Positions 6,407-51,974 of a stretch of 64,000 bases of DNA are shown in pieces. A program made the translations under genes and the position numbers. This DNA comes from an uncultured Geobacteraceae bacterium (lineage in GTDB: Bacteria; Desulfobacterota; Desulfuromonadia; Geobacterales; Pseudopelobacteraceae), in contig CAIQWT010000053.1 of the NCBI GenBank assembly GCA_903875605.1, positions 1-64,000 on the forward strand. Reading direction: 5' to 3'. The notes beneath the pieces were generated by a model. That model did no database searches, was not told the origin of the DNA, and saw nothing but the letters and a program-made list of their open reading frames with translations. Numbering within the stretch: the first letter of the stretch is position 1; each line of letters opens with the position of its first letter.

Positions 6407-8212
6407 TTACGACTTGTTAGAGCGCTTGCGACGTGTCGGATCAAGCTCTTTCTTGCGCAGTCGAATCGAGAGCGGAGTAACTTCAACCAGCTCGTCGTCC
6501 TCGATGAACTCCAGCGCCTGCTCAAGCGTCATTATTCGCGGAGGAGTTAGTTTGATGGCGTCATCGGTGCCTGAGGCACGCACGTTGGTCAATTTTTTGC
6601 CCTTGCAAGGGTTGATGTCAAGATCGTTATCCTTGTTGTTCTGGCCGATGATCATGCCGCCGTAGACTTCAACTCCAGCGCCAATAAACAGTGTGCCACG
6701 CGGCTGCAATGCGTCCAGTGAGTAAGCGGTGGTTTCGCCGTGATCCATGGCCATCAGTGCGCCGTTTTTGCGTCCCGGGATGTCACCCTTGTAGGGAGCA
6801 TATTCGTGAAAGGTGTGGGTCATAACAGCAGTACCGCGAGTATCTGTAAGCACCTCGCCGCGCAGACCAATCAGGCCGCGGGCAGGAATTATGAATTCGA
6901 GGCGTACCATCTCGCCCATCGGTGCCATTGCGACCATCTCGCCCTTACGTGGCCCCATTTTTTCGATAATTGCACCCTGGAACTCCGAAGCAACATCGAC
7001 CACAAGGTATTCCATCGGCTCCATTTTGACTCCGTCCTTCAAGCGGACGATTACTTCCGGCTTGGATACTGCAAGCTCAAAGCCCTCGCGGCGCATGGTC
7101 TCAATCAGAATCGAGAGGTGCAGTTCACCGCGACCGGAAACCATGAAGGTGTCAGCGCTATCGGTGTCGTCTACACGCAGAGAAACATTTGTGCGAAGCT
7201 CTTTGGTAAGGCGTTCGCGAATATTACGTGAGGTAACCCATTTGCCTTCGCGACCGGCAAAAGGTGATGTGTTAACAATAAAGTTCATCGAGAGGGTCGG
7301 TTCGTCTATCGAAACGTAAGGAACTGCTATCGGATTCTCGGCGGAAGCAAGGGTTTCGCCGATACTGACTTCCTCAAAACCGGCAACGGTGACAATATCA
7401 CCTGTTCCGGCCTCTTCGATATCGACCTGTTTCAGGCCTTCATAGCCGAGCAGCTTGGTGATGCGCCCCTTCGTAATGGAGCCATCCTGCTTGATCATTG
7501 CAACAGTTTCACCTGCTCTTACTTTACCGTTAAAAATACGGCCGGTGGCCATACGGCCGATGTAGTCATTGTAATCGATGTTGGCAATCAACATCTGAAA
7601 CGGAGCATTGACATCACCTTTTGGCGGACGAACGTTGGACTCTACCACTGCGAAAAGCGGCTCCATGCTGTTTGATTCAATGTTAATATCCAGTTTGGCG
7701 TATCCCAGCTTTGCGCTGGTATAAACAACCGGAAAATCAAGCTGATCGTCGGATGCGTTCAGTTCGCAGAATAGATCGAATACCATGTTGAGCACTTCGT
7801 CAGGGCGACTGCCGGGACGATCGATCTTGTTGATGACAACGATCGGCTTTAGGTTCAGGTCGAGAGACTTTTTTAGTACGAAGCGAGTCTGCGGCATTGG
7901 GCCGTCAAGTGCGTCTACTAGCAAAAGTACGGAGTCAACCATCTTAAGTACGCGCTCTACCTCACCGCCAAAGTCGGCATGGCCGGGGGTGTCAACGATA
8001 TTAATTTTGTAGGGGCCGTGGTGGATTGAGAGGCTTTTGGCCAGAATGGTAATGCCGCGTTCTTTTTCAAGGTCGTTTGAATCCATAACGCGTTCAGTGA
8101 TGGCTTCATTGGCGCGGTAAACACCGGCATGTTTCAGCATGGCATCAACCAGTGTGGTTTTACCGTGGTCAACGTGGGCAATAATGGCAATATTTCTGAT
8201 TCGTTCCTGCAT
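6407..8212 (-). CDS. typA: Translational GTPase TypA/BipA
   Basis: [44 protein letters not shown]; 601 aa. Confidence 0.97.
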
Positions 8213-8243
8213 GGGTAAAACTCCTCAATGCTGCAAAATAAAA

Positions 8244-8265
8244 CGACGGGCATTACTGCCCGTCG
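8244..8265 (-). terminator. Probable intrinsic terminator of the CoA-binding protein gene
   Basis: Hairpin CGACGGGCA-TTAC-TGCCCGTCG; minus strand followed by TTTTATTTT. Confidence 0.65.
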
Positions 8266-8346
8266 AAGACTGTGTACTATGTCAGATATATGTTGATCTG
8301 ACAAGCATTTATACGATAGTCAAGAAAAAATTATCAATCTAGCGAT

Positions 8347-8751
8347 TTAATGCTCGTGATATCCCATTACAACCAGAAGACAACTGCCATCGGCGATGAC
8401 GTTTATTCCCTTTTCGCGGCAGAGTGCCACCGCATCCGGATGCTCGGCTCCCGGCTGCATCCAGATATTCTTTATCCCCTTTTGGATTGCCTGTGGAACT
8501 AGCTTTGCGGTGACAGTTGGCGGAGTTATCATTGATATGCTTAAGGCTCCAGGTGGCAGGTCACCGATTGAGGCCGCGCAGAGTATCCCTTCTATTTCTG
8601 ATTCATTGGGATTAACAGGAATGGCAATTTTTTCGTGCTGCAGGTAGCAGCGCAGTACTTTATTGCCATATTTTTGGCGATTGATGGATGCACCGACCAC
8701 GCCGTATGCGGGTGAAGCGAGGAACTGCAGGATCTGCTCTTGAATGGTCAT
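8347..8751 (-). CDS. CoA-binding domain (YccU-like) protein
   Basis: YGVVGASINRQKYGNKVLRCYLQH ... IWMQPGAEHPDAVALCREKGINVIADGSCLLV; start moved to ATG 8751, which has a GGAG RBS. Confidence 0.82.
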   Translation of the reverse strand: MTIQEQILQFLASPAYGVVGASINRQKYGNKVLRCYLQHEKIAIPVNPNESEIEGILCAASIGDLPPGALSISMITPPTVTAKLVPQAIQKGIKNIWMQPGAEHPDAVALCREKGINVIADGSCLLVVMGYHEH

Positions 8752-9174
8752 ACGAGGCTCCTTTTCTAAGTTAAGGTTATAAAGTGTAAAGATTAAGTAA
8801 TGGAGACAGTTGTCGCCAAGAGATGCCGCTTCCATGGTAGCTGGTACTCATCAAAAAACCGGTTAGAGGACTTTCTTCCGCTCCAGTATATGCACTCCTG
8901 TTGTTAATGCAATCGGATTTAAAGCGGTACATTAGCGGGAGAATGTCGAGAAGCTTGCCCTCTTCTTGGATTCAACTACCAATTTAACTAATGGATTGCA
9001 TACTGAAAGCAGATTTGGAAGTAGAAGTTTGAACTCTCTGCTTTAGAACAGCATTAGATATTCACTAATTCATATGGCATAAACGGCGATGATGTCATTT
9101 AGGCAACCAGACAATATTCCGATTTATCGGCATGTTGATTTGTCTATTATATTTTATATATTTTATAAAACCAA

Positions 9175-9204
9175 TTGACATCCGCTCAATATTTCGATTA
9201 TATA
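9175..9204 (+). promoter_or_regulatory. Putative sigma70 promoter of the repeat-protein cluster
   Basis: TTGACA with a TTATAT/TATATA element 17-18 bp downstream in an AT-rich intergenic region. Confidence 0.45.
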
Positions 9205-9340
9205 AACGCCATTTCATAAATATAAATTGAATAAAATCATAGAATATACATAGAATCTAATTCTTGTTGCAGCGATTTATAAAAACATTGATTAAATGAA
9301 AACACCCATTTAGATCTAGCTTGCCTTGGGAGACTCATTA

Positions 9341-11182
9341 GTGAATATCGCGATTAATTATACTCATAGTTGTGTTCTCTGCTTGGCGTGTCTTGCAATT
9401 TTCAGCTCTTCTGTAATGGCTCAGTGCGAAGGCGATTGTAAGGATGGTAAAGGTGTTTTACGCTCTTCCGAAGGTCAAATATTATATGAAGGTCAATTTA
9501 AATATGAGAAGTTTGAAGGCCAGGGAGTCCAGTACAGGCTAGACGGTAAAACAGCCTATGAGGGTACATGGAAGAAAGATAAAAAAGAAGGTCAAGGCAC
9601 TTTATATGCGCCTGACGGGAGTAAATACAAGGGTCAGTTCGTGGCTGATATGAAAAACGGACAAGGCCATTTTTACGGGCAGGATGGTGTAGAGCAATAT
9701 GAGGGTTTGTGGAAAGACGATACATGCGTTTACAGAGGCCAGATCAAAGACGGTAAAAAAAATGGGAACGGGGTACTCTTCGGGGCAAATGATGCAATAG
9801 AATATGAAGGTGTGTGGAAAAATGACCGGAAAGAGGGTAAAGGCACTTCATACGAACCGGATGGAAATAGATATGAGGGACAATTCGAAAATGACAAAAA
9901 AAACGGCCAGGGGATTTTATACGTTCCTTTTGAGGGAGCACAAAGTATTTGGTCAGTTATGTTTAAGCCAGGCGACGATAAAAACAAAAATGCCATAAAG
10001 CAATACGTCAAACTATACGAAGGACAATGGAAAGAGGGCAGACTTGATGGCGCGGTAATCGAGTATTATCCCGACGGGAAAAAGAGTTATGAAGGATATA
10101 TGATAAATGGCATTCGCGACGGCCAGGGGATCGGTTACAGGAAGGACGGCATCAAGACGTATCAGGGTATGTGGAAGAGTAATAACTATAACGGAAGGGG
10201 AACTTCCTTTAGCCAGGACGGAAGGAAGATCTACGATGGATTTTGGAAAGATGGGAAATATGAAGGCCAAGGGATTTCATTCTACCCGGATGGCAACAAG
10301 CTTTATGAAGGTGCATGGAAAGACAGTAAGCTAAACGGCAAGAGTGTTTCTTATGCACCGGATGGTGGCATGCTTTACGATGGTGAATGGAAGAACGACA
10401 AAAAAGACGGCATGGGAGCGTTTACGTGGTCGGATGGCAGTAAGTATGAGGGGCAATTCAAGGATGATATGATACATGGCCAGGGCAGCTTTTATGTGAC
10501 TCTTGGAAAAGAAGGAAGCAGCTCTCTTTCCCAATTATTCGATTTTCTTATTAAGCTTGATGAAAGGGAAGAGATCAATATTCCATCGGACATAAAAGTT
10601 GTAAAAGAGAAAAAAAATACAAAGAGTTCCAAAGGAGCAAAAGCCTCCAAGGGAATAAAAAACATAGAGAGCAGTGAAGCCATAAAAGAAGCAGTAACCC
10701 TGATTAAACTTTTTACCGGCGAGTGGAAGGATGGAGAAATACATGGTCATGGCACCTATTATTATCCGGATGGTAATAAACGCTATGACGGTGAGTGGAA
10801 GGATGGGGAAATTAGTGGCAAAGGGATTTATTTTTATCCTAAGGGTACAAAACTTTATGAGGGTGAATTAAAAAACGGTAAGCCCGACGGGAATGGTATT
10901 AAATATCGCAGGGATGGCAGCAAAATTTTTGATAGTACATGGAAAAACGGCAAAATAGAGGGCAAAGGTGTGGAGTTCCGGAAGGATGGTACCAAGCTCT
11001 ACGAAGGACAGTGGAAAAATAGTGAGTACAACGGAAAAGGGATCTCCTTCGGAGCCGGTGGAGTCAAGCGTTACGAGGGGCAGTGGAAAGACCGCAAGTT
11101 TGAGGGCAAGGGAACGTACTTCTCCCCGGACGGGAAAGTTAACTATGAAGGTCAATGGCATGACGGCAACTTATCCAAGTAA
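9341..11182 (+). CDS. Secreted MORN-repeat protein (about 20 repeats)
   Basis: Signal peptide ...FSSSVMA-Q; repeated YEGQWKDGKxEGxG(x)nYxPDG units. GTG 9341 with GGGAG RBS preferred over TTG 9326. Confidence 0.88.
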   Translation: MNIAINYTHSCVLCLACLAIFSSSVMAQCEGDCKDGKGVLRSSEGQILYEGQFKYEKFEGQGVQYRLDGKTAYEGTWKKDKKEGQGTLYAPDGSKYKGQFVADMKNGQGHFYGQDGVEQYEGLWKDDTCVYRGQIKDGKKNGNGVLFGANDAIEYEGVWKNDRKEGKGTSYEPDGNRYEGQFENDKKNGQGILYVPFEGAQSIWSVMFKPGDDKNKNAIKQYVKLYEGQWKEGRLDGAVIEYYPDGKKSYEGYMINGIRDGQGIGYRKDGIKTYQGMWKSNNYNGRGTSFSQDGRKIYDGFWKDGKYEGQGISFYPDGNKLYEGAWKDSKLNGKSVSYAPDGGMLYDGEWKNDKKDGMGAFTWSDGSKYEGQFKDDMIHGQGSFYVTLGKEGSSSLSQLFDFLIKLDEREEINIPSDIKVVKEKKNTKSSKGAKASKGIKNIESSEAIKEAVTLIKLFTGEWKDGEIHGHGTYYYPDGNKRYDGEWKDGEISGKGIYFYPKGTKLYEGELKNGKPDGNGIKYRRDGSKIFDSTWKNGKIEGKGVEFRKDGTKLYEGQWKNSEYNGKGISFGAGGVKRYEGQWKDRKFEGKGTYFSPDGKVNYEGQWHDGNLSK

Positions 11183-11218
11183 AGCCGCCCGAATCACACT
11201 TTGTGCAGGGAGTTTTTC

Positions 11219-13102
11219 ATGAGTTCTCAACCCAACCTGAAAAAGAATAGCACGCCCGCACGTATCTTGCGTGAATACTTTCATTTCAGTTTTTCACTGT
11301 ATTACGTGAGAGTTTTCTGCCTTTTACTGCTTTCACAGTTGTTTTATGGATGCGACGGCAGTTACAGCTCAAATCCCACAACAAATGCGTCAATACCGGG
11401 AGTGTCCGGGGCAGTCGTGAGCGATCTGTCAACACCGACAACATCGACAGATGCCAGGCTTGCCTATGCATTTACCGATGATATCGTTATGTATAGTCCA
11501 TCCTGTCCTGGACAGAGTTGTACTGAGTATATACCAGTAGGTAACCCCGTAAACTCCTATGCGATCGATCCGGTTACCGGTGGTTTTACCCTGATCGGAG
11601 AGGTTGGCGATCTTTCCCCTCCGAATACGTTATCAATAGCTTTGGCTCCGTCAAGCAATTTCCTCTACCTGCTTTCCGGCGAGAATCTTGTGCACACGTT
11701 TTCAATCGGCTATTTGAACGTTACCGGCACCGAATTTGCCAACCAGAAACTCGACCCGCTGAAACTCTACTATAAACTGGTAAAGGGTGGGTATATTTCG
11801 GAAGCCGTCTTATCACCAGGACAGGCAACCGATAATTTGATTACCCTGCTTGAAGAAACAACCCTCTTTGACCAAATAGCTGCAAAAAACCCAAACATAA
11901 CGCTGACGAATGATTTAGCAGCTCTGAAAACTAAAACTGTTGCAATCAGGGGAAAGAGCTTCAGTATACTTTCCTTCAGCGACAGAAAGGCGATCGTAAA
12001 CCTGAACCGGCTAATGCTTGAACTGGTCTATCCGGATGATATTCCTAAAAACAAAGGCTTCTCCTCACTTCATGCCGTTGGCTCACCGGTATCGACACCA
12101 ACTGTACCCTGGGGTGCTTCAATTGTGATTGATCCACTTGGTAAATTCGCCTATGTCCTTGGTTCCAGCAGTGTGTGGGTGTATTCCATAAATCAGGCCA
12201 CCGGTGCGCTAACCTCCAGAGCTGTTCAGTCGGTTGGATTAAGTCAACTTATAATCACCCCATCCGGTTCTTTTGCCTATGGTTCAAATAATGGCACAAT
12301 GCACACCTACAAAGTTGAGCGCAGCACCGGAGTGCTTAATGAAATCGGAAGTTCCTATTCATTTAAAAGTTGGGTAGGAGGCGTTCAATTCCATAATATG
12401 GCTTTGGACCCAACAGGTAAATTTCTTTATTACATCGGAAGCTCCGGTTTCCATACCAATTTAGCTGAATTTGGTCAGTGCGGATCCACCAGATATCAGC
12501 TCGGCAGCTTGATCTACACCTTCATAATAGATGCAAACACTGGCCTGCTGACTCAAAGCGGGGCCGTAGTCGATACTACACCCAATATTATGGTGTGGGG
12601 TGCGGTGGATCCAAATGGCCGTTTTGTACAATTGCTAAACACTCAACGGTATTCCGGAAACCCCATCCCGCCATATACGGATGGCATTTGTCCTGGTCCT
12701 ACAACAAACGATCTTAAGCCGGGGCACATAAATTCGTATCTAGTTGATCCGTCATCAGGACAATTGTTTTCCACCGGAAATATTGCGGCAGGCGGAAGGG
12801 AGTATCAGCCTGGGTATGTCAACGCAGCTTTAGATTCAGTAATGTTACTAGGTAATATAACAGGCAGTTACCTCTATCTTCTTAATGCCGGTGATATGTA
12901 CATGTACAACATTGATCAGGCTGATGGTTCTCTCACTGTTACCGGATCTCCTTTGACCGGAGCAACTATAACGGCAATGCCAGTAAAGAAAGATCCTCCT
13001 AATACCTGGCCATCAAAGTGCTATTCAAATTCACAATTTAATTCGGCTCTATGTAGAGTCACTGATTCTCGTTTTAACTCAATAATCTGGGCGGGGCATT
13101 AA
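11219..13102 (+). CDS. Putative lipoprotein with lactonase/YncE-like beta-propeller repeats
   Basis: Hydrophobic N-terminus ending LFYGC; repeats such as DPLGKFAYVLGSSSVWVYSINQATGALT. ATG 11219 follows a GGAG RBS. Confidence 0.72.
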   Translation: MSSQPNLKKNSTPARILREYFHFSFSLYYVRVFCLLLLSQLFYGCDGSYSSNPTTNASIPGVSGAVVSDLSTPTTSTDARLAYAFTDDIVMYSPSCPGQSCTEYIPVGNPVNSYAIDPVTGGFTLIGEVGDLSPPNTLSIALAPSSNFLYLLSGENLVHTFSIGYLNVTGTEFANQKLDPLKLYYKLVKGGYISEAVLSPGQATDNLITLLEETTLFDQIAAKNPNITLTNDLAALKTKTVAIRGKSFSILSFSDRKAIVNLNRLMLELVYPDDIPKNKGFSSLHAVGSPVSTPTVPWGASIVIDPLGKFAYVLGSSSVWVYSINQATGALTSRAVQSVGLSQLIITPSGSFAYGSNNGTMHTYKVERSTGVLNEIGSSYSFKSWVGGVQFHNMALDPTGKFLYYIGSSGFHTNLAEFGQCGSTRYQLGSLIYTFIIDANTGLLTQSGAVVDTTPNIMVWGAVDPNGRFVQLLNTQRYSGNPIPPYTDGICPGPTTNDLKPGHINSYLVDPSSGQLFSTGNIAAGGREYQPGYVNAALDSVMLLGNITGSYLYLLNAGDMYMYNIDQADGSLTVTGSPLTGATITAMPVKKDPPNTWPSKCYSNSQFNSALCRVTDSRFNSIIWAGH

Positions 13103-13104
13103 AT

Positions 13105-15888
13105 ATGAAAAAATTATTTTCATCCCATTTTCATCCTCGTATTCCGTCGTTTTATAGCTTCTCAATTAAAATATCGGCGCTCGCAGTTCTGCTGCTTTCG
13201 CTAGTAGCCTGTAACAACTCGCAGTCGGGCAAGATTAATCCCATCGATACCAATGGAAAGGAACTTGGCGTGCTTGCCAGTGTCGCAATTGGCCCTACAA
13301 CCACATCTTCTGCCACTGACGGCTTGTACAGTCCGATGGCGGTGTCGCTCTCCTGTGATGGAGGTGCTGATGGCTACTGCCTGGCAACATATTACACAAT
13401 AGATGGTACAACCCCAAACAGGGCTTCTACAGTTTACTCCGGGCCAATTTCTATCTGGTCCAAAACAACTTTGAAATATTTTTCAATTGACAAAGCCGGT
13501 AATGCCGAACCGGTTAAAACTCAAAACTTCCTGGTTGGGTCTATCGCTATTCGCGATATTAAAACGTTTGCAGCCGGCTGGAACCACACGCTAGGGATTA
13601 AAAAGGACGGCACACTGTGGGCGTGGGGGGGAGGAGACTCCGGACAGCTCGGTAATGGGACTCTTGTCGACCAAAAAATACCCGTTCTAATCGATAGCGG
13701 CAGCCCGCCATGGTCAGCCGTTTCTGCAGGCAAATCTTTTTCGCTGGGGCTCAGAAGTGACGGAACTCTATGGGCTTGGGGTTTAAACACCAATGGTCAG
13801 CTTGGAGACGGATCCACGATTGACAAAAAAACTCCGGTTCAAATAGGTACTGATACTTTATGGCAGGCAATAACAGCAGGGTCGTCATTTTCTTTGGGAC
13901 TCAAAAAGGATGGTTCACTCTGGGCATGGGGTTCTAATTCATTTGGCCAGCTTGGTGACGGGTCGCAAAACGACAAAAACATTCCAATCCGGATTGGCTC
14001 CAAGGATACCTGGACCTCTATTTCTGCCGGATATTCTCATTCAGTAGCTCTTATGAACAATGGCACCCTCTGGGCGTGGGGCGGCAACAGCTCAGGACAG
14101 CTTGGTGATGGCACGAAGGCTGACAGTAATATTCCGGTTTCGGTTCCAGGAACAAACTGGTCTGCAATTGCCGCAGGCGGCAGTGGCGTACCGTATGCTG
14201 TCACCGGTGGATATATCGTAGGAGGACACACGCTTGCACTGAAAAGTGATGGGACCTTGTGGGCGTGGGGACAGGACACCTTTGGTCAGCTTGGTGACGC
14301 CGCTTCGCAATTAAATTATTACATGGGATGGGCGGAAGCCGGAACCTCGCCACTCTCTGAATATGGCGGCAGTAGAGATGGATCACTTCCATTCCAAATA
14401 GGTTCAGATAGTGACTGGTCAAATATCTCCGCCGGAGGGGGGCATAGCGTAGCATTGAAAAACGATGGCACTCTCTGGGCGTGGGGTTTAAACGTTAATG
14501 GCCAACTGGCCAACGGTAATGCCGGGATGAACAATCTGCTTCCCCTCCCTGTTGGCGACGACATCCGGTTGCCATTGATTCTACCGAAACGGCCCTGGGC
14601 AACCATCTCTGCCGGGGGATACCATACGACAGCTTTGCGGAGTGATGGCACCCTGTGGGCATGGGGTTGGAATAGCTCCAGTCAATTGGGTGATAATACA
14701 ACCATGTCAACCGGCGGAGGGTCAGGTTCGGCTACTGTTTCTAAAGGGGGATTCACGGCAATATCTCCAACATGGAAGCTGCCTAGGTTCGCCTATGTTG
14801 TGTCTGACAAGGTGTACCCCTACTCGATAGATTATAATCCCGGCTCTGGTTCTGGACCTAACACCGGATCAGGTAAATTAACCAGCACAGCTGCACCTGT
14901 CAATGCAGGTGAATTACCTACATCTGCTGCGATCCATCCCACCGGAAAGTTCCTTTATGTGACGGACAGTAAAACAGCTGCGGTGAACGGTGATAAAGTC
15001 AGTTACATCCATCAATTTTCTGTTGACCCAATATCCGGCGCCTTAACCGAAATCGGCAGCGATTCCAACGGAGTAAAAACACTTTACGATCCTGTCTCGA
15101 TAACGGTTGATCCTTTGGGCAGGTTTGTATATGTCGTTGGCTCTCATTCCAAAGGGTGGAAGACGATAGCGGTCTATACGGTTAATCCTGCATCAGGTGA
15201 GCTAACCTGCACTGGAACTGTGGCCCAAGGGGCTTATGCCCTCGCGGTTGAGCCACTTGGAAGATACGCCTATGTATTGAAAAATTCCGGGATACCATCA
15301 TCAACCGGAGTTATCAGCTACAGTATCGACCAAACCACCGGTATGTTGAATAGCGCTATTCGTGGGCGAGATGAGTTGTTTTCCAAAGTGGACAACGAGA
15401 TTGTATCAGCCAAGTATCTCACGGTTGATCTCTCCGGGCAGTTTCTGTATGTAGCCAAAGAGGGAGGAGCCTCAAGCAGTGCTGAAATACAGATTTATCG
15501 AATTATTCAGGCATCTGGGGAAGTAGTTGTTTCCGGGAGTCCCTATCCGACAACTTCAATTTCGGCGATGGCAATTAGTCCGCGCAGTGAAGGTGAGCCT
15601 TTTGCTTATCAGTATTTATCCATGATCAACTACTCAAAGCCAAACATAATAAGGATCGACCAGGCTGTCGGAAGTTTAACGGACATGAACATTGATCTGT
15701 CTGCTGCATCCGGTTCGGTAGGAGTTGCTGCTGAAGCAACCGGCAAACTGTTTTACTACCTGACTTCCAGTTCGATTTATGGATATGCATTGGACCGATC
15801 CGGTAAAATGCAGCCACTCGGTTCTATGGCCGGCAATGCTGGAACCGGGGGTAGACCCCTGAAAACGATGGTGTTTGCTTCGTATTAG
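13105..15888 (+). CDS. Lipoprotein: chitobiase/HEX C-term-like module, seven RCC1 repeats, lactonase-like propeller
   Basis: LSLVAC lipobox; YYTIDGTTPNRASTVYSGPISI; seven AGxxHxxALxxDGTLWAWGxNxxGQLG units; C-terminal PTGKFLYVTD / PLGRFVYVVG repeats. Confidence 0.85.
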   Translation: MKKLFSSHFHPRIPSFYSFSIKISALAVLLLSLVACNNSQSGKINPIDTNGKELGVLASVAIGPTTTSSATDGLYSPMAVSLSCDGGADGYCLATYYTIDGTTPNRASTVYSGPISIWSKTTLKYFSIDKAGNAEPVKTQNFLVGSIAIRDIKTFAAGWNHTLGIKKDGTLWAWGGGDSGQLGNGTLVDQKIPVLIDSGSPPWSAVSAGKSFSLGLRSDGTLWAWGLNTNGQLGDGSTIDKKTPVQIGTDTLWQAITAGSSFSLGLKKDGSLWAWGSNSFGQLGDGSQNDKNIPIRIGSKDTWTSISAGYSHSVALMNNGTLWAWGGNSSGQLGDGTKADSNIPVSVPGTNWSAIAAGGSGVPYAVTGGYIVGGHTLALKSDGTLWAWGQDTFGQLGDAASQLNYYMGWAEAGTSPLSEYGGSRDGSLPFQIGSDSDWSNISAGGGHSVALKNDGTLWAWGLNVNGQLANGNAGMNNLLPLPVGDDIRLPLILPKRPWATISAGGYHTTALRSDGTLWAWGWNSSSQLGDNTTMSTGGGSGSATVSKGGFTAISPTWKLPRFAYVVSDKVYPYSIDYNPGSGSGPNTGSGKLTSTAAPVNAGELPTSAAIHPTGKFLYVTDSKTAAVNGDKVSYIHQFSVDPISGALTEIGSDSNGVKTLYDPVSITVDPLGRFVYVVGSHSKGWKTIAVYTVNPASGELTCTGTVAQGAYALAVEPLGRYAYVLKNSGIPSSTGVISYSIDQTTGMLNSAIRGRDELFSKVDNEIVSAKYLTVDLSGQFLYVAKEGGASSSAEIQIYRIIQASGEVVVSGSPYPTTSISAMAISPRSEGEPFAYQYLSMINYSKPNIIRIDQAVGSLTDMNIDLSAASGSVGVAAEATGKLFYYLTSSSIYGYALDRSGKMQPLGSMAGNAGTGGRPLKTMVFASY

Positions 15889-15940
15889 ATTCTAGCGCGT
15901 ATTATGATCAATGACGGCAGATAAGACGTGGAGGCAGACA

Positions 15941-17959
15941 ATGCTTAAGGGTGATTATTTTCAGATAGATAAAGGGTGGCGGTTGATCGTACTGATCCTT
16001 ATTTCGGTATTCCTCATATCGTGCGGAGGTCCTAAAGAGCCGGGTACATCTTTGTCGTCAAGTCGTGGTAATCAGTTGGTATCCCCACCCACGGCCCCTC
16101 CGTCAATTCCTACAGGAGTGAGGGCGACCGCCGGTAACGGGGAGGCAACGATCAACTGGATTGCAGTCGATGGTGCAACCTCATATAACATTTATTATTT
16201 GATGTTCCCCGGGAAAACGTCTGCTGACTCACACCCGGCGCTGACAATTAAAAACTCAAAACAGATGACAGCGGCTGTTTCCGGTGTGCCCATAACCGGA
16301 CTTGCCAATGGTGAAACCTATTACTTTATCGTGACCGCAGTTAACGAAATCGGCGAAAGTGGTATCTCCAGCGAGATGTCGGCAAAGCCGATGCCAAATC
16401 TGCCAGGAATTCCGACTTCTTTTCAAGTCACCGCCGGAGCAGCAAGCGTTAATCTCTCGTGGCAAAAGGTAGTCAACGCAATCTCTTATAATGTCTATTA
16501 CGGCACTTCGCCGGGTCTATCTACCTCTAGCCTGAAGTATGCGAATACCCAACTCACCTCGCAGTTAGTGGGGGGGTTGTCTATTGCTCCGGGACATTAT
16601 TACTTTATGGTAACGGCTGTGAACGATTCAGGCGAAAGTGGCTCATCCGTTGAGTTGGTTACTACCGCTAAATCTGCTTATAAGACCGTTGCTGCAGGTG
16701 CCAACCACTCCGTAGCACTCAGAATCAGGGAAAGCGTCCTGGCTTCAATTGACAATGGCGGCGTTTATTCATGGGGACAGAACATCAATGGTCAGCTTGG
16801 TACAAATGGCAGTCCATCACAATCAGCAAAACCTCTGGAATCCGCTCTTTCCCAGGTTACTGCAGTTGCCGCCGGTGCAAACCACACAGTGGCTCTTACA
16901 ACCGATAAATCCGTATATGACTGGGGACTTAATGATGTTGGTCAGCTTGGCCAGAAAGGTAAAATAAACACTCTGACCGGCTCTTCAAAGTACCTGATCA
17001 CGAATACAACTGATATGAAAGCCGTAGCCGCCGGATTTGCCCACACCGTTGCGCTCAGAAACGATGGCACAGTATGGGCGTGGGGTGATAATGAGTTCGG
17101 GCAGCTTGCGCGCAAATCTGTAACCTGTAAAGATCCTGATAACCCTAAATTGGGCGAAGATTACAAATGCGATTCTACACCAAGCCAGGTATATGGAGTC
17201 ACCAGGCCGGTTGTCGGAATCGCTGCCGGCGACATGCATACCCTGGCATTAGACGATAACGGCACTGTCTGGGCCTGGGGAAGAAATGATACCGGCCAAC
17301 TTGGGGGAACTTCGTTTTGCGATCCCCTTGTCACGCTTAACCCGCAGGACATTGGCTTTTCCAGCTCAACCGCAACATCCTGCGGTGTTTATCCGGTACA
17401 GGTGACATCAATCAGTGATGCTGTTATTGCCGTTTCGGCAGGAGTCCGGCATTCCGTAGCATTGACCTCCAAAGGAGAAATCTGGACATGGGGTGGCGAT
17501 TTCTATGGCCAGCTTGGCTCAACGTCATCGTCGACCAATACCTGCTATATTAATAGTGCTTTTTCTATGAATTGCACGCCTGACCCGGGAAAAGTGATTG
17601 ATGGAAATCTAAATCACATAGTCGCAATTTCTGCAGGTGCATACCACACGCTTGCACTTAGGAGCGATGGTACAGTGTGGACGTGGGGCTATAATCTTTC
17701 TTACAACGGAGAATTAAAAGATACTGATACAAGGAGTGTGGTTTACAACAGAAATGCTGTACAAATCACCCAGTTGAGCGGGATTGTTGCAATTGCAGCT
17801 GGTGCATATCACTCATTGGCTCTCAAAAATGATGGTTCTGTATGGGCGTGGGGCTATAACGGACACGGACAGCTAGGCGATAATAGCGTTGATATCAGAG
17901 TCATACCGGTTAAAGTTCAAGGCCTTCCAGACCCGGTGGTGGTTTTGCCTGGGTTGTAG
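15941..17959 (+). CDS. Lipoprotein with two fibronectin type III domains and seven RCC1 repeats
   Basis: VFLISC lipobox; two FN3 units (YYFIVTAVNEIGESGISSE, YYFMVTAVNDSGESGSSVE); seven RCC1 units. ATG 15941 has a GGAGG RBS. Confidence 0.85.
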   Translation: MLKGDYFQIDKGWRLIVLILISVFLISCGGPKEPGTSLSSSRGNQLVSPPTAPPSIPTGVRATAGNGEATINWIAVDGATSYNIYYLMFPGKTSADSHPALTIKNSKQMTAAVSGVPITGLANGETYYFIVTAVNEIGESGISSEMSAKPMPNLPGIPTSFQVTAGAASVNLSWQKVVNAISYNVYYGTSPGLSTSSLKYANTQLTSQLVGGLSIAPGHYYFMVTAVNDSGESGSSVELVTTAKSAYKTVAAGANHSVALRIRESVLASIDNGGVYSWGQNINGQLGTNGSPSQSAKPLESALSQVTAVAAGANHTVALTTDKSVYDWGLNDVGQLGQKGKINTLTGSSKYLITNTTDMKAVAAGFAHTVALRNDGTVWAWGDNEFGQLARKSVTCKDPDNPKLGEDYKCDSTPSQVYGVTRPVVGIAAGDMHTLALDDNGTVWAWGRNDTGQLGGTSFCDPLVTLNPQDIGFSSSTATSCGVYPVQVTSISDAVIAVSAGVRHSVALTSKGEIWTWGGDFYGQLGSTSSSTNTCYINSAFSMNCTPDPGKVIDGNLNHIVAISAGAYHTLALRSDGTVWTWGYNLSYNGELKDTDTRSVVYNRNAVQITQLSGIVAIAAGAYHSLALKNDGSVWAWGYNGHGQLGDNSVDIRVIPVKVQGLPDPVVVLPGL

Positions 17960-18031
17960 GCCCTTAGTGTGGTGGGTTTATTGTTTATTTTATAAAGCGA
18001 GTCAGCTTTTAGTGAATTGGGGGGTAATTAC

Positions 18032-19309
18032 ATGAGAAAAGTGCATAACGCCAGACTGGTAGTAATAGCCATAATTGCAGTAGTCTCTTTTTCGTCATTG
18101 AGTGTTAGGAAAGCTTCAGCCCTTGAACTCTATAATAATGACGCATTGTTGACCCGGCTAAAGAAAAACCAGGTTGTTTCTGAAAAAGATATTGTTGAAG
18201 TAAAAAACAGTTATCCAAAAGTGGAATTAATGGGAAGTCTCCAGCTTCGTTATGTCAATGGCCTGGATACCGCCAGTCCTGATAGTGTCAGTGATTTGTA
18301 TATAAATCGACTGAATTTGAGGGTTGTTGCACATCTGACGGAAAAAACCAGTTTTGTCATTCAGCCCGAATATGGCCGTGGAGAATCACTCATTAAAGAT
18401 GCATACCTCCGCTATAGCCAGTCAGGACTGGATATATTTGCCGGAAATCATAGAGTGCCATTCGGCGCCGATGCTCTAAAAAATGACATTAATCTCACCT
18501 TTGTTGACCGCAATCTTGCGTCTCGAATATCGCCGGATTACTTGCCTGGAGCCTCAGTAGGCACAACACTGCTTGGCTCAAAGCTGATGGCTCAGGTCGG
18601 GATGTGGAACGGTAATATAAACAGTAAAGCGGAAGCCAAATTGATCAATAACTCTTTGGCAGACGCGCAGATATTCTCGTCAACTGCCGGCGCATCAGGC
18701 AGTAATATTATAATTGAAGCATTAAGGTTAGCGTACTCTTCTAAAGGGCACAGCACTTTTTATCCCGGTGGACGCAGTTTTGATGACGACGAAAATTTTA
18801 GTAAATCAATGAGCTATGGAGGCGGATTCAGTTATTACAATTCGGCAGCCATTCATGATAAGGCGTCGACAGTTTCTTTAGTCGGCCTGAATGGGGCCAG
18901 TGCCTATGAAATCGACCTTTTTTTCAAGATGTGGCGATTGTCCACTGAATTTGAATATGCAAAAAGAACCCTTGACTGGTGGCAATACAGTGCTGCAACG
19001 ACTAGCAACTCGTTGGTCTCCAGTACTCAGACTTCTGTAGCCATTCAGGCAAGCGCAATTGTTATTGATAATCTGTCTTTAAGTACTCGCTACGAGACTT
19101 TTACGTATGATGGTAAAGGGTCAGTTCTGAAGGGTATGTACGGTCAGGATAAGGATAACTGGTTTACTCTGGGGATAAATTATTATTTCAAAGAGCAACA
19201 CACTAAAGTACAGGCGAACTACATCAATAAGGCGGAAGTTATGCCCGATGGAGTTACTGCACCGTCAACCAGTAACGCATTGTATCTTCAAGCCACAATG
19301 TACTTCTAA
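18032..19309 (+). CDS. Porin, phosphate-selective porin O/P-like
   Basis: Signal peptide (VRKASA-LE); LMGSLQLRYVNGLD..., RLNLRVVAHLTEKTSFVIQPEYGRG, terminal aromatic residue (YLQATMYF). Confidence 0.75.
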   Translation: MRKVHNARLVVIAIIAVVSFSSLSVRKASALELYNNDALLTRLKKNQVVSEKDIVEVKNSYPKVELMGSLQLRYVNGLDTASPDSVSDLYINRLNLRVVAHLTEKTSFVIQPEYGRGESLIKDAYLRYSQSGLDIFAGNHRVPFGADALKNDINLTFVDRNLASRISPDYLPGASVGTTLLGSKLMAQVGMWNGNINSKAEAKLINNSLADAQIFSSTAGASGSNIIIEALRLAYSSKGHSTFYPGGRSFDDDENFSKSMSYGGGFSYYNSAAIHDKASTVSLVGLNGASAYEIDLFFKMWRLSTEFEYAKRTLDWWQYSAATTSNSLVSSTQTSVAIQASAIVIDNLSLSTRYETFTYDGKGSVLKGMYGQDKDNWFTLGINYYFKEQHTKVQANYINKAEVMPDGVTAPSTSNALYLQATMYF

Positions 19310-19396
19310 AAGGCACAATCCCGGAATGTTGCAGGTAAGCAAGTGGTGTAACCGAACTCTTAAACTGTTTGAATCGATTTGAGTAAGAGGTATGCA

Positions 19397-22300
19397 ATGA
19401 AAAAATACTCAGCTCTCTCCCTTGTGTTGGTAACCGTGCTTTTGCTGCTGACAACCGCATGCAGCAGTTCAAATCCAACTGAGTTAGGGTCTAATAAAAC
19501 TTCTGCAGCAGTAACTACCGGGCGAACCCCGGTTATCGCCAGTTTTGCCCCTTCCTGGCAATTAGTTGGCTACCCTATAACCATTTATGGATTAAACTTT
19601 GATGCCATAGCTGCAAATAATACGGTTATGTTCACTGGCGCCAGCACGCCGGCTATTGTTGCTTCCGCTACTGCTACATCGCTTATGGTTATTGTGCCGC
19701 AAGGTGCAACAGTCGGCCCTGTTTCGGTTTCCTCTACGACAGCAGAAGGGACAGCGGTCACTACGACGAGTTTTGTAGTGAGGAGTTTTACGGACGCTTC
19801 TGCGCCCAAAATTTCCAGTTTTTCACCAAACTTCGGAATAGTCGGCACATCAGTAATCATTGCCGGCACAAATTTTTATACATCACCAGAACATAATATA
19901 GTTACCTTTAATGGCACTCAGGCCGTGGTAACAGATGCGAATGCCACGTCACTCACGGTTAAGGTTCCTGACGGCGCAAATGGTAATGTTACTGTTACAA
20001 CACCTGGAGGGAAGACGGCGATCTCTCCAAATAGTTTCACTATAACTTCACCGGAGGGGGTAAATCCGGTAATAAAAAGTTTTACTCCACTTCGTGGTGC
20101 CGCAGGAGTTACTCAGGTAGTTATAAGAGGTAAAAATTTTGATACTACGGCAGCAAACAACATCGTAAAGTTCAATGGCACAGAAGCCCCTGCTGAAGTC
20201 GTTGCGGATGCAGTATCTGCAACTTCACTTATGGTGACAGTCCCGTTTGGAGCCACTTCCGGGCCGATTACTGTCACAAGCGCAACCGGAGTTGTAGCGA
20301 AATCATCGTCTGTATTTACTATACCGGTTAGGCGGGTAATTTCGAACCTGATGGGCGGCGCAATTCAGCGGACTATGAGTCTGTCCGGCACTTCTCTTAC
20401 TTTTGCAGGAGGTGGCGAGGTGAAAACACTAGTAGACGGAACCGGTGCCGAGGCCAGCTTCACAACTCCTAGAAGCATGATATCTTATGGTAACAGCATT
20501 TTTGTCGCAGATTCCGGAAATAAAGTCATAAGAAAAATTGAAATATCCGGGACAGACGCGGGAAAGGTTACTACCTTGGCTGGATCAAATGTCGCTGGTT
20601 CGTCAGACGGGACTGGATTAGCGGCAAGCTTCTCTTCTCTGGGGGGTATTACTACAGACGGAATCAATCTGTATGTTTCTGACAGTGGCAATAATAAAAT
20701 ACGGATGATATCGCCTCGAGCCGGTTTTTTACTCGATACAATGACTGCAAACGATGCAGTTGTTTCGACTTTTGCCGGTTCCGGTTCTATGGGGTCAAAG
20801 GATGGGACAGGTCCGGTCGCCACGTTTAACAGTCCGAACGGAATAACCACAGATGGCACTTCCCTATTTGTTGCAGATGGCTCCAACAAAATTCGAAGGA
20901 TCGATATTACTTCGCGCGCAGTGAGCCTACTTGCAGGGTCTGGTGCATACAGTTCCAAGGATGGCATCGGAAATGCGGCAAGTTTCTTTCGACCACAAGG
21001 CATCTCTTTTGTTAAGAATGATTCGGGCTCCTTCCTTTTTGTTTCTGATATCGGTTCCCATGTTGTCCGGAAAATTGATGTCAAGACGGGCTCTGTGACG
21101 ACTTTTGCTGGTACAGGCACGGCAGGTGCCGCAAATGGAACCGGGGCAAACGCCAGTTTTAGAGTTCCTATGGATATTGCTCTAAGCTCAGATGGCTCAT
21201 TTCTTATTGTGGCAGACGCCGGCAATAATACTATTCGCCAGATTGAACTCTTAAGCGCAAACGTCACGACTCTTGCGGGTTCAGGAACTGTTGGGTTTGC
21301 TAATAATGCTGATGCGCTACTGGCAACATTTAGCCAACCCAACGGAATTACCACTGTAGGAGCAGATGTTTTTGTGTCAGATACCGGTAATGGACTTATA
21401 AGAAAAATATCAGGAGGAGTTGTTTCCTTATTTGCAGGTAATGTTTCATCCACTGGTACAGTCAAAAACATAGGTACTAGCGCTACTTTTAACTTCCCGT
21501 ATGGAATCACTTCTGATGGGGTCAACCTGTATATCACCGAATCAGGGGCAAACATGATCCGCAAAATTGAAATCTTGACAGGAAAAGTTACCGTGCTTGC
21601 AGGGAGCAGCTATGCCGGTTCAGGTGACGCTACTGGTATTTCAGCAAGTTTCAATCATCCAATGGGAATAACTACTGATGGCAGTTATCTCTATGTTGCT
21701 GATGCCGCAAGCAATAAAATTCGGCAGATTGAGTTGTCCAGCGGAATTGTTACAACAATTGCCGGTTCCGGCGCTTACGGATCAAATGACGCTTCTTCTA
21801 ATGGTACGGCTGCTTCATTTAGCCAGCCACTCGGTATAACTACTGATGGCACTTACCTCTATGTGGCAGATACAGGTTGTAATAAGATCAGAAGGATTGT
21901 AATCGCCACTGGATCTGTAAGTACTATTGCCGGTTCAGGAGCTGTTGGTGCAACTGACAATATTGGTGTTTTGGCAAGTTTTAAAAATCCAGCCGGCATT
22001 ACAACCGATGGAACTTATTTGTATGTTGCAGACACCGGAAACAACAAAATCAGAAAGATTGATATTCTGACAAGAGAAGTCACCCAGTTTGCCGGTGCAG
22101 GTGGTGACTACTGGTATAATGATCTTTACGACAATGTAGCCAACGGCACGTGGATTGGTGGCGCTGCAAACTTTCACAATCCTACAGGAATCACCACGGA
22201 CGGTACAAATCTTTATGTTGCGGATGCTGACAATAACGTGATTGTTAAGATTGAAATTTCTACTAAAGCAGTTTCGGTACTCGCTGGTTCTAATGCTTTT

Positions 22301-22420
22301 GGCTCCTCTGACGGGACTGGAACTCGTGCCAGTTTTAGTCAGCCGGTTGGGATTACGACGGACGGAACAAATTTGTTTACTACGGAATACTTAAATAGTT
22401 TGATAAGAAGAGTACAATAA
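19397..22420 (+). CDS. Lipoprotein with three IPT/TIG domains and an NHL-repeat array
   Basis: LLTTAC lipobox; three IxSFxPxxGxxGTxVxIxGxNF domains; repeated GITTDGTYLYVADTGNNKIRKI...VTTLAGSGxxGxxDGxGxxASF. Confidence 0.87.
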   Translation: MKKYSALSLVLVTVLLLLTTACSSSNPTELGSNKTSAAVTTGRTPVIASFAPSWQLVGYPITIYGLNFDAIAANNTVMFTGASTPAIVASATATSLMVIVPQGATVGPVSVSSTTAEGTAVTTTSFVVRSFTDASAPKISSFSPNFGIVGTSVIIAGTNFYTSPEHNIVTFNGTQAVVTDANATSLTVKVPDGANGNVTVTTPGGKTAISPNSFTITSPEGVNPVIKSFTPLRGAAGVTQVVIRGKNFDTTAANNIVKFNGTEAPAEVVADAVSATSLMVTVPFGATSGPITVTSATGVVAKSSSVFTIPVRRVISNLMGGAIQRTMSLSGTSLTFAGGGEVKTLVDGTGAEASFTTPRSMISYGNSIFVADSGNKVIRKIEISGTDAGKVTTLAGSNVAGSSDGTGLAASFSSLGGITTDGINLYVSDSGNNKIRMISPRAGFLLDTMTANDAVVSTFAGSGSMGSKDGTGPVATFNSPNGITTDGTSLFVADGSNKIRRIDITSRAVSLLAGSGAYSSKDGIGNAASFFRPQGISFVKNDSGSFLFVSDIGSHVVRKIDVKTGSVTTFAGTGTAGAANGTGANASFRVPMDIALSSDGSFLIVADAGNNTIRQIELLSANVTTLAGSGTVGFANNADALLATFSQPNGITTVGADVFVSDTGNGLIRKISGGVVSLFAGNVSSTGTVKNIGTSATFNFPYGITSDGVNLYITESGANMIRKIEILTGKVTVLAGSSYAGSGDATGISASFNHPMGITTDGSYLYVADAASNKIRQIELSSGIVTTIAGSGAYGSNDASSNGTAASFSQPLGITTDGTYLYVADTGCNKIRRIVIATGSVSTIAGSGAVGATDNIGVLASFKNPAGITTDGTYLYVADTGNNKIRKIDILTREVTQFAGAGGDYWYNDLYDNVANGTWIGGAANFHNPTGITTDGTNLYVADADNNVIVKIEISTKAVSVLAGSNAFGSSDGTGTRASFSQPVGITTDGTNLFTTEYLNSLIRRVQ

Positions 22421-22478
22421 AAAAACTTGATCAACAATACCTACTAATCTCAATACAATTAAATCAGAATTTTTACTC

Positions 22479-22508
22479 GGGGTAGACAGTTGATGTCTGC
22501 CCCTTTTT
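22479..22508 (+). terminator. Intrinsic terminator after the repeat-protein cluster
   Basis: GGGGTAGACA-GTTGA-TGTCTGCCCC-TTTTT. Confidence 0.8.
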
Positions 22509-22653
22509 AGGACCAGTAACTTATATCCGAGGGCGGATCACGTGAAATAATATTGTGACGTCACCGGTAATTCTGATAAGGTTAGATCTACCGTAAACAG
22601 GGCGCACACAGATTTTAACGTAACAAAATTTAGCAATATCGCCGGAGGGCAGC

Positions 22654-23427
22654 ATGCATGCACTGTACAATATGATATTCGGCTTTGCTCCATTTCTGAT
22701 TATAGTATTCGGCTGGCTTGTTAGCTGCCTCAAGGTAGTTAACGAGTACGAACGGCTTGTGGTATTCACGCTGGGTAAGGTGAACAAAGATCCGAAGGGA
22801 CCAGGCCTGGTTTTCGTTTTTCGGCCATTCCAGACTGCCGTTCGCATTAGCCTGCGTACCGTAGTGCTTGATGTGCCGAGCCAGGACATCATTACTCGCG
22901 ATAACGTAAGCCTGAAGGTCAGTGCTGTCGTCTATTTTAAGGTGCTGGATGCCAAACAGGCCATTCTCGGCGTGGAAAACTATAACTATGCAACCAGTCA
23001 GATAGCACAAACCACTTTACGATCCATTCTTGGGGAGGTCACACTGGATGAGTTGCTTGCGGATCGCGAAAAACTGAGTCTGAGACTGCGGGAGATCATC
23101 GATTCCTCCACAGAGCCGTGGGGCATCCAGGTTTCCGCAGTTGAGCTCAAGAGCGTGGATCTTCCCGAGCAAATCCAGCGTGCCATGGGCAAACAGGCCG
23201 AAGCTGAACGAGAAAAACGCGCTAAGGTTATTGCTGCAGAAGGTGAGCTTCTAGCTAGTAGACAATTACTGGAAGCAGCCAATACGCTAAGCCAGAACCC
23301 TGCCGCAATGCAGATGCGTTATCTTCAGACCCTTACAGAAATAGCAGTGGAGAAGAATAGTACCATAGTGTTTCCACTGCCCATCGAACTGATGAAGGTT
23401 TTTGAAAAGCTCGGTGAAAAGCCTTAA
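22654..23427 (+). CDS. SPFH/Band 7 slipin (stomatin-like) protein
   Basis: Single N-terminal TM; VNEYERLVVFTLGK...GPGLVFVFRPFQ...DVPSQDIITRDNVSLKVSAVVYFKV. Confidence 0.93.
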   Translation: MHALYNMIFGFAPFLIIVFGWLVSCLKVVNEYERLVVFTLGKVNKDPKGPGLVFVFRPFQTAVRISLRTVVLDVPSQDIITRDNVSLKVSAVVYFKVLDAKQAILGVENYNYATSQIAQTTLRSILGEVTLDELLADREKLSLRLREIIDSSTEPWGIQVSAVELKSVDLPEQIQRAMGKQAEAEREKRAKVIAAEGELLASRQLLEAANTLSQNPAAMQMRYLQTLTEIAVEKNSTIVFPLPIELMKVFEKLGEKP

Positions 23428-45578: not shown

Positions 45579-47507
45579 ATGCTGAGTAAACGGCGTTTTA
45601 TAATTTTTGTCTCCGATACTGTGCTAATAGGAGTTGCGCTACTCCTGGCATTTCTGCTGCGGTATGATTTTTCTATTCCGCAGGATCAGCGGGCGCTTTT
45701 TTGGGAATGCCTGCTGGTAGTCTTGATCTTTAAGCCGATGGTTTTTGCGATGACCGGTTTTTACAACAGCCTTTGGCGCTATGCTTCGGTTCAGGATGCG
45801 CTGCAAATAGTTAAAGGCGTATTCCTGTCTTCATTTGTGGTTATAGCCGCGGTATTTTTTCTACAACAATTTACTCCGCTCCCCCGATCCATATTTGCCC
45901 TCGACTCGATACTGCTCTTTATTATGTTGGCGTCCAGCCGTCTTGTGTGGCGCGTCTGCCGGGAAACTTACATTGTCAGCAAGAACGTTTCAGGGCCTCT
46001 TACGCTGATTGTTGGTGCCGGAGAAGCGGGAAGTCTGCTGCTAAAAGAAATACGACGTCAGTCCGGGGCATCTTACCGGGTGATTGGTTATGTTGATGAT
46101 GACCCTGAAAAAAAGGGGATGAAGCTGCACGGCATTCCGGTGCTGGGTGGGGTAAAGCAGCTTAATAAACTGATCCTCACCAATGAAGTTGAAGAGGTTA
46201 TCATCGCCATGCCTTCGGCTGACGGGAAAACTATCAAGGACATCATAAATTCCTGCAAAAACGCCGACGTGATTTTTAAAACGCTTCCCGGCATCAGTGA
46301 TTTGATAGACGGAACTCTGACTATATCCCAAATCAAGAAAGTTCAGATTGAAGATCTTCTGGGGCGTGAGCCGGTAGATTTGGATCGTGACTTGATCGGT
46401 GCCTTTCTGACAGGTAAGCGCGTGCTAGTCAGTGGCGCTGCAGGCAGCATCGGCAGTGAAATCTGCCGTCAGGTCGCCCTGTTTAAACCGGCGAAGCTGA
46501 TCTTGCTGGATCAGGCCGAAACGCCCCTTTACGAGATAGAAAAGGAGCTTGTAAACCGCTTCCCAGAAATACGCATGCTGGCATTAATGGCTGATGTCCG
46601 CGACCGTGAAAACATACTGCAGCTCTTTGATGAATTTACTCCCGAGGTCGTTTTTCATGCTGCCGCTTACAAGCATGTGCCGATGATGGAATATAACCCG
46701 ACTCAGGCGGTGCTTAACAATGTCTTCGGTTCGCGTAATATCGCCGATGCAGCCCACCAGTCCAAGGTGAGCAATATGGTTATGATCTCGACTGACAAAG
46801 CGGTTAACCCGACAAATGTTATGGGGGCTACCAAGAGATCAGCCGAAATTTATATCCAGGCGCTTTCACGAAATAGCAGTACCAGATTCACTACTGTCCG
46901 CTTTGGTAATGTGTTGGGGAGTAACGGCAGTGTCATCCCGTTGTTCAAACAACAGATAGCCGCCGGTGGACCGGTTACTGTGACCGACAAACGGGTCATC
47001 CGCTATTTTATGACTATCCCCGAGGCTACGCAGCTTGTGCTGGAGGCCGGTTGTCTTGGCAAAGGCTGTGAAATAATGGTGCTGGATATGGGTGAGCCTG
47101 TGCGGATTATTGATCTGGCTGAGGAATTAATCAGGCTGTCAGGCTTTACGCCATACGAAGACATAGATATTGTTATAACCGGTCTTCGCCCCGGTGAAAA
47201 GCTGTACGAAGAACTGCTGATAGAAGGTGAAGGCGTTATGCCGACTAGTCACGACAAGATCAAGGTGATGGCACCGGTTCATACCGATCTTACGTGTGTC
47301 TGCGATGAGTTTGAGCGGCTGTATGAGGCTGCCCGATCTAATAAAGTTCATGAGCTGATGGAATCCCTGAAACGACTGGTTCCCGAATTCAATCCTACTT
47401 ATAGTTTTAATGGTTCAGCTCCGTTAACATTTCAGCGCGTGCGGCCTGACCTGTTCCCTGCTCCGGCATATGGTTCAGCAAAGGTGGTTTTGCTGCGGAA
47501 GAGCTGA
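45579..47507 (+). CDS. Membrane-anchored nucleotide-sugar dehydratase/epimerase (CapD/PglF/WbpM-like)
   Basis: N-terminal TMs; VSGAAGSIGSEICRQVALFKP; HAAAYKHVPMMEYNPTQAVLNNVFGSRN; STDKAVNPTNVMGATKRSAE. Confidence 0.93.
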   Translation: MLSKRRFIIFVSDTVLIGVALLLAFLLRYDFSIPQDQRALFWECLLVVLIFKPMVFAMTGFYNSLWRYASVQDALQIVKGVFLSSFVVIAAVFFLQQFTPLPRSIFALDSILLFIMLASSRLVWRVCRETYIVSKNVSGPLTLIVGAGEAGSLLLKEIRRQSGASYRVIGYVDDDPEKKGMKLHGIPVLGGVKQLNKLILTNEVEEVIIAMPSADGKTIKDIINSCKNADVIFKTLPGISDLIDGTLTISQIKKVQIEDLLGREPVDLDRDLIGAFLTGKRVLVSGAAGSIGSEICRQVALFKPAKLILLDQAETPLYEIEKELVNRFPEIRMLALMADVRDRENILQLFDEFTPEVVFHAAAYKHVPMMEYNPTQAVLNNVFGSRNIADAAHQSKVSNMVMISTDKAVNPTNVMGATKRSAEIYIQALSRNSSTRFTTVRFGNVLGSNGSVIPLFKQQIAAGGPVTVTDKRVIRYFMTIPEATQLVLEAGCLGKGCEIMVLDMGEPVRIIDLAEELIRLSGFTPYEDIDIVITGLRPGEKLYEELLIEGEGVMPTSHDKIKVMAPVHTDLTCVCDEFERLYEAARSNKVHELMESLKRLVPEFNPTYSFNGSAPLTFQRVRPDLFPAPAYGSAKVVLLRKS

Positions 47508-47601
47508 AAGCAATGACCCGAAACGCGGGATTTTAATTGGATGATGCATGTAAAGATATAAATAGTTACTCACCATCCAAAATATCGTCAACTGGTGAGG
47601 C

Positions 47602-49251: not shown

Positions 49252-49359
49252 GGGTTATCTTGTGGATGGCCGGAAATAAACACACAAAATGAGTTGGCTT
49301 TACATAATGCTTAAATTTGCTTACTATGCTCGGCTATTGAATTCGAGGGGGAAATAAAA

Positions 49360-51966: not shown

Positions 51967-51974
51967 GGGGGGAT

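Follow-up and report, generated by a model that had tools for sequence, protein, structure and literature searches.

In SusCD-like pairs, a surface lipoprotein adjoins a barrel. The Porin O/P family (PF07396) comprises barrels such as OprP, OprO and ExtI, and the phosphate site of OprP is formed by residues K121, S124, S125, K126 and R133 (list from PMC5877670). In the Uet (undecaheme electron transfer) clusters, a barrel is combined with NHL-repeat proteins (PMC10734462). A literature search for surface proteins of the RCC1 or MORN type in this bacterial group found nothing. Here we analyze a six-gene block within a 64,000-nucleotide stretch of DNA (the window). We read the block, with a probability of roughly 0.45, as a lineage-specific accessory operon for the surface display of binding proteins together with a divergent porin.

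Organization of the block

The block comprises the following features; gene starts were set by the position of the Shine-Dalgarno sequence (GTG 9341, ATG 11219, 13105, ATG 15941, ATG 18032 and ATG 19397).

9175..9204, + strand: candidate promoter called from sequence, TTGACA, 18-nt spacer, TATATA (weak -10)
9341..11182, + strand: gene 1, exported MORN-repeat protein, 613 aa, GTG start, signal peptide ..SSVMA|Q
11219..13102, + strand: gene 2, lactonase-type β-propeller protein, possible lipoprotein, 627 aa, non-canonical lipobox FYGC
13105..15888, + strand: gene 3, lipoprotein with CHB_HEX_C_1, RCC1 propeller and lactonase propeller, 927 aa
15941..17959, + strand: gene 4, lipoprotein with two FN3 domains and RCC1 propeller, 672 aa from ATG 15941
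18032..19309, + strand: gene 5, divergent OprO/OprP-family porin, 425 aa, signal peptide, C-terminal ..LYLQATMYF
19397..22420, + strand: gene 6, lipoprotein with three IPT/TIG domains and NHL propeller(s), 1007 aa
22479..22503, + strand: intrinsic terminator, GGGGTAGACAGTTGATGTCTGCCCC-TTTTT, 10 pairs

A sequence-only reading of this DNA had described six consecutive genes on one strand with short gaps, and the ORF listing of the window bears this out: six adjacent ORFs occupy 9341-22420 of the + strand in the order originally proposed, separated (5' to 3') by 36, 2, 52, 72 and 87 nt. The start of gene 4 at ATG 15941 has ggagg upstream; if the far start is used instead, the gap between genes 3 and 4 is 22 rather than 52 nt. 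A terminator scan detected no terminator-like site in the five gaps, and the terminator that had been placed at about 22479 is indeed the strongest on the + strand within 8200-23000. The promoter suggested at about 9175 is a different matter: its TTGACA is perfect, but the -10 element is poor (just TATATA, 18 nt behind), and a promoter scan returned 26 sites versus 24.8 expected, which is chance level, with the 9175 site absent from its list. We therefore do not use this promoter as evidence. The gaps and the terminator agree with co-transcription, and the six genes would form a single operon.

Exported repeat proteins

Domain calls with Pfam/NCBIfam assign MORN repeats to gene 1 (11 stretches, 2.9e-73), Lactonase to gene 2 (3.9e-8), CHB_HEX_C_1, RCC1 and Lactonase to gene 3, FN3 and RCC1 to gene 4, and TIG and NHL to gene 6. 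The gene 1 protein has an ordinary signal peptide, and canonical lipoboxes follow the signal peptides of genes 3 (LVAC), 4 (LISC) and 6 (TTAC). These data confirm the secreted MORN protein, the RCC1+lactonase lipoprotein (with CHB_HEX_C_1 as an extra domain), the FN3+RCC1 lipoprotein and the IPT/TIG+NHL lipoprotein of the initial description. Gene 2 had been described as a lactonase-like lipoprotein; the Lactonase domain stands, but the lipobox (FYGC) is non-canonical and weak, with Asp at +2. AlphaFold models made without an alignment were of low confidence for both gene 2 (pLDDT 37) and gene 5 (pLDDT 30). Elsewhere in the window, at 45579-53183, lies a polysaccharide export cluster that encodes Polysacc_synt_2, Wzi, SLBB/Poly_export and Wzz proteins.

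The sequence-only reading also held that the block has no heme motif, and CxxCH is indeed absent from all six proteins, nor does the window encode a multiheme cytochrome. Both absences, and that of a cyclophilin (UetB) from the block, stand against a trans-outer-membrane electron conduit of the Pcc or Uet kind with its cytochromes encoded elsewhere, an idea to which the barrel and NHL-repeat pairing of Uet clusters (PMC10734462) lends some weight, as does ExtI, which belongs to the porin family of gene 5 and is encoded next to multiheme cytochromes in a sibling species (L087). We regard this conduit, already weakened, as very improbable. Membership in a porin-cytochrome/Uet conduit was rejected because the required multiheme c-type cytochrome is not in the cluster.

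A far-diverged porin

By itself, gene 5 has no Pfam match, and a scan of genome contigs with this single protein gave no match. It matches just the ExtI model NF040900, at 17.8 bits versus a cut-off of 150 bits (a sibling's true ExtI scores 677 bits), so gene 5 does not qualify as ExtI. The closest relatives from other genomes share ~25-30% identity with gene 5. When gene 5 was compared with a profile of 14 such relatives by hhalign, the match reached 99.5% probability over 360 of the 425 columns; 14 of the 15 alignment members match Porin_O_P, and the family profile matches the solved structures of OprO (4rjw, 1.2e-31) and OprP (2o4v, 5.4e-30). Furthermore, the C-terminus carries a barrel-type Phe signature. 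The OprO/P-like label that gene 5 had been given is therefore right but distant; judged from its sequence, gene 5 is a far-diverged barrel of the OprO/OprP family. At L087:6617-11009, in a sibling species, a true ExtI porin gene adjoins genes for 9-heme and 12-heme cytochromes.

A further observation concerns the phosphate site. In the gapless stretch that was compared (FGADALKNDINLTFVDRN versus FGLEKATSSKWVTALERN), OprP residues K121, S124, S125, K126 and R133 correspond to A, N, D, I and R in gene 5, such that R133 alone is kept. The mature barrel is not Arg/Lys-rich (36 K+R versus 39 D+E). Bearing both features in mind, gene 5 is not an evident anion channel, and a phosphate channel, which we considered and rejected, is unlikely.

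Porin O/P relatives adjoin TupA, ModA, ModE-like or sulfate-binding-like genes at L080, L081, L083, L085, L149, L151, L152, L155 and L156, with the sulfate-binding calls made from reading sequence and not from a model; this suggests that those relatives are outer-membrane channels for tungstate, molybdate or sulfate (oxyanion uptake). Gene 5 has no such oxyanion-binding neighbor in the window. Since tungstate, molybdate or sulfate binding-protein genes adjoin the relatives at these loci (all but L151 and L156), the barrel family appears to work in specific uptake, which favors viewing the block as a unit for solute capture and uptake, in which the porin would receive an extracellular substrate from the propeller lipoproteins that bind it, as SusD-type lipoproteins serve their barrel. 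However, neither a transporter of the ABC or TonB kind nor a periplasmic binding protein or an enzyme is encoded in the block, and the substitution of K121, S124, S125 and K126, together with the charge balance of gene 5, also argues against uptake; we consider such a unit unlikely.

Distribution and genomic context

We searched 58 genomes of relatives (own included; 37 of one genus) and two wider sets of 277 class and 396 phylum genomes, with one genome per species. These searches used single-sequence queries of sampled genomes and can overlook relatives that are very distant or were not sampled. Within the 58-genome set, gene 1 (MORN) has partial matches in five other genomes and gene 2 (lactonase) in four, and gene 5 has weak matches in nine; eight other genomes match the lactonase portion of gene 3 in part. 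RCC1/FN3 matches occur in 55 of the 58 genomes and NHL/TIG matches in 46 (own included in each count), but in other proteins. Across class and phylum, gene 2 matched just lone or neighboring lactonase lipoproteins, beside which no porin, RCC1 or MORN gene was recognized, and no orthologue of gene 5 was present in the 277 class and 396 phylum genomes. The same gene set as that of the block was found in no other genome sampled, be it from the relatives, the class or the phylum. The domain content of the block is ordinary for the group; it is the combination that is unusual.

These data do not uphold the proposal of a recurring, undescribed surface system, bearing in mind that there is neither a second genome with the block nor a porin orthologue in the wider sets. 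The neighborhood search for recurrent co-occurrence, set beforehand as the refuting test, had a largely negative outcome in all three sets of genomes (relatives, class and phylum). There is consequently no conservation signal for the six genes working together, and the restriction of the block to one genome argues for a species-specific surface decoration and not a widespread undescribed machine.

The genes of the left flank (ppsA-like, two cobalamin-type genes, typA and a CoA-binding gene) are conserved together in the genus, and in genus relatives the CoA-binding gene is not followed by the block. The slipin gene of the right flank is 93-96% identical in five siblings, and is located elsewhere in those genomes. 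The GC3 of the block is 0.37-0.47, versus 0.51 ± 0.03 in other window genes. Flanking genes that the genus conserves without keeping them next to each other, together with the low GC3, mark the block as an accessory segment, and the data fit one that is acquired or fast-changing. No RNA elements or tRNA were found at the borders of the block, no mobile genes mark its ends and no inverted repeats flank it; the only direct repeats are those that code for the RCC1 and MORN repeats. A plasmid origin was considered and gave no match.

A junction that is variable, a block present in one genome only and repeat proteins as frequent as the RCC1/FN3 and NHL/TIG counts indicate would all be expected if six surface-protein genes had been gathered by chance, or by local repeat-domain shuffling at a variable genome site, and had no joint function. 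On the other hand, in a survey of 123 fetched loci plus the window (92 propeller proteins in total), runs of three or more propeller genes occur in the window alone, where four of them surround a single barrel gene at spacings of 2-87 nt and share one terminator with it. Moreover, in their RCC1 parts, genes 3 and 4 resemble each other less than they resemble proteins from elsewhere, which argues against simple tandem duplication; gene duplication inside the block is not supported as its origin. We hold the absence of any joint function to be a serious contender, albeit a rather unlikely one.

Propeller and barrel genes at other loci

In five sibling species, an FN3/NHL lipoprotein gene is followed at 0-1 nt by a gene for a ~300-aa protein with a signal peptide and a barrel-type C-terminus. 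Two genomes (own and one sibling) contain a second arrangement, in which the gene for an RCC1/NHL giant repeat protein is followed by those for a small lipoprotein, a protein with TPR and barrel parts, FecR and a CHASE2 adenylate/guanylate cyclase.

L095:4701-7241, L103:1478-3777, L104:8409-10684, L176:2466-5671, L190:6099-9523: NHL lipoprotein and ~300-aa barrel-like pairs
L098:8968-20000 to L100:1-10589 (own contig C7) and L226:8056-17400: RCC1 giant, TPR-barrel, FecR and CHASE2 loci

The ~300-aa proteins of the five siblings are 40-50% identical among themselves. Type I secretion genes adjoin the pairs in all five, and a cyclophilin-like lipoprotein is next in two of the five (one of the two was tested). 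Outer-membrane proteins were called by a simple home-made rule (signal stretch, C-terminal aromatic, alternating hydrophobic residues) that passes 4.8% of ORFs of ≥180 aa, so these calls are suggestive only. Near the slipin gene of one sibling, L142:13-3053 encodes a protein distantly homologous to the NHL-associated barrel (33% over 308 aa), adjoining a 657-aa lipoprotein without a Pfam match. In a same-genus genome, one reading frame of >4000 aa (L090:2538-14681) joins lactonase-type and NHL propellers.

A looser form of the original proposal, that propeller surface proteins are paired with dedicated barrels in the genus, fares better, since such pairing recurs at other loci, although with other barrel families. 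It is conceivable, but in our estimation quite doubtful, that the block encodes a cytochrome-free outer-membrane complex of several β-propeller lipoproteins on a dedicated Porin O/P-type barrel, as one case of a group-wide habit of pairing propellers with barrels for display or anchoring (NHL, barrel and type I secretion; RCC1 giant, TPR-barrel, FecR and CHASE2 cyclase).

Proposed surface display and comparison with known systems

The claim of an outer-membrane surface complex had rested on export signals, repeat folds and one barrel; these are real, and the term 'outer-membrane surface system' is reasonable on that account, but the system fails as a recurring unit. We hypothesize that the block serves surface display as follows: the five non-barrel proteins would exit the cytoplasm by Sec; three of them, and probably a fourth, would receive a lipid anchor and be targeted to the outer membrane; the MORN protein would be set free in the periplasm or farther out. 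Binding heads for a putative extracellular ligand (matrix polysaccharide, mineral or neighboring cells) would be formed by the RCC1, lactonase-type and NHL propellers, carried on Ig-like stalks of the FN3, TIG and CHB type, such that the block would function in attachment or in matrix or ligand binding. The porin would be an outer-membrane pore, probably not for phosphate, that may pass small solutes beside the binding proteins or anchor one of them, most likely the product of the adjacent gene 6. Should the barrel and the propeller lipoproteins indeed assemble into a complex, this would reveal how these bacteria hang large binding proteins outside the cell without cytochromes. As it stands, the block is an accessory surface locus of one genome that points to better, recurring propeller-barrel loci in siblings.

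Among described systems, the Porin O/P family is one that the block comes close to: gene 5 aligns with it over nearly its full length and has the barrel-type C-terminus, but differs in lacking a Pfam match of its own, in its ~25% identity, in the loss of OprP phosphate-site residues and in having no transporter or cytochrome neighbor. The block resembles Uet clusters in placing a barrel beside NHL-repeat proteins, but has no hemes or cyclophilin (UetB), and has RCC1, lactonase and MORN proteins instead. The likeness to SusCD-like pairs, a lipoprotein gene beside a barrel gene, is an analogy: the block has no TonB-dependent receptor or plug, and the folds are unrelated. The sibling NHL and ~300-aa barrel loci differ in their barrel family, their tight spacing, their type I secretion genes and, in two cases, the cyclophilin lipoprotein that comes next, yet they share with the block a propeller lipoprotein that adjoins an outer-membrane-like barrel.
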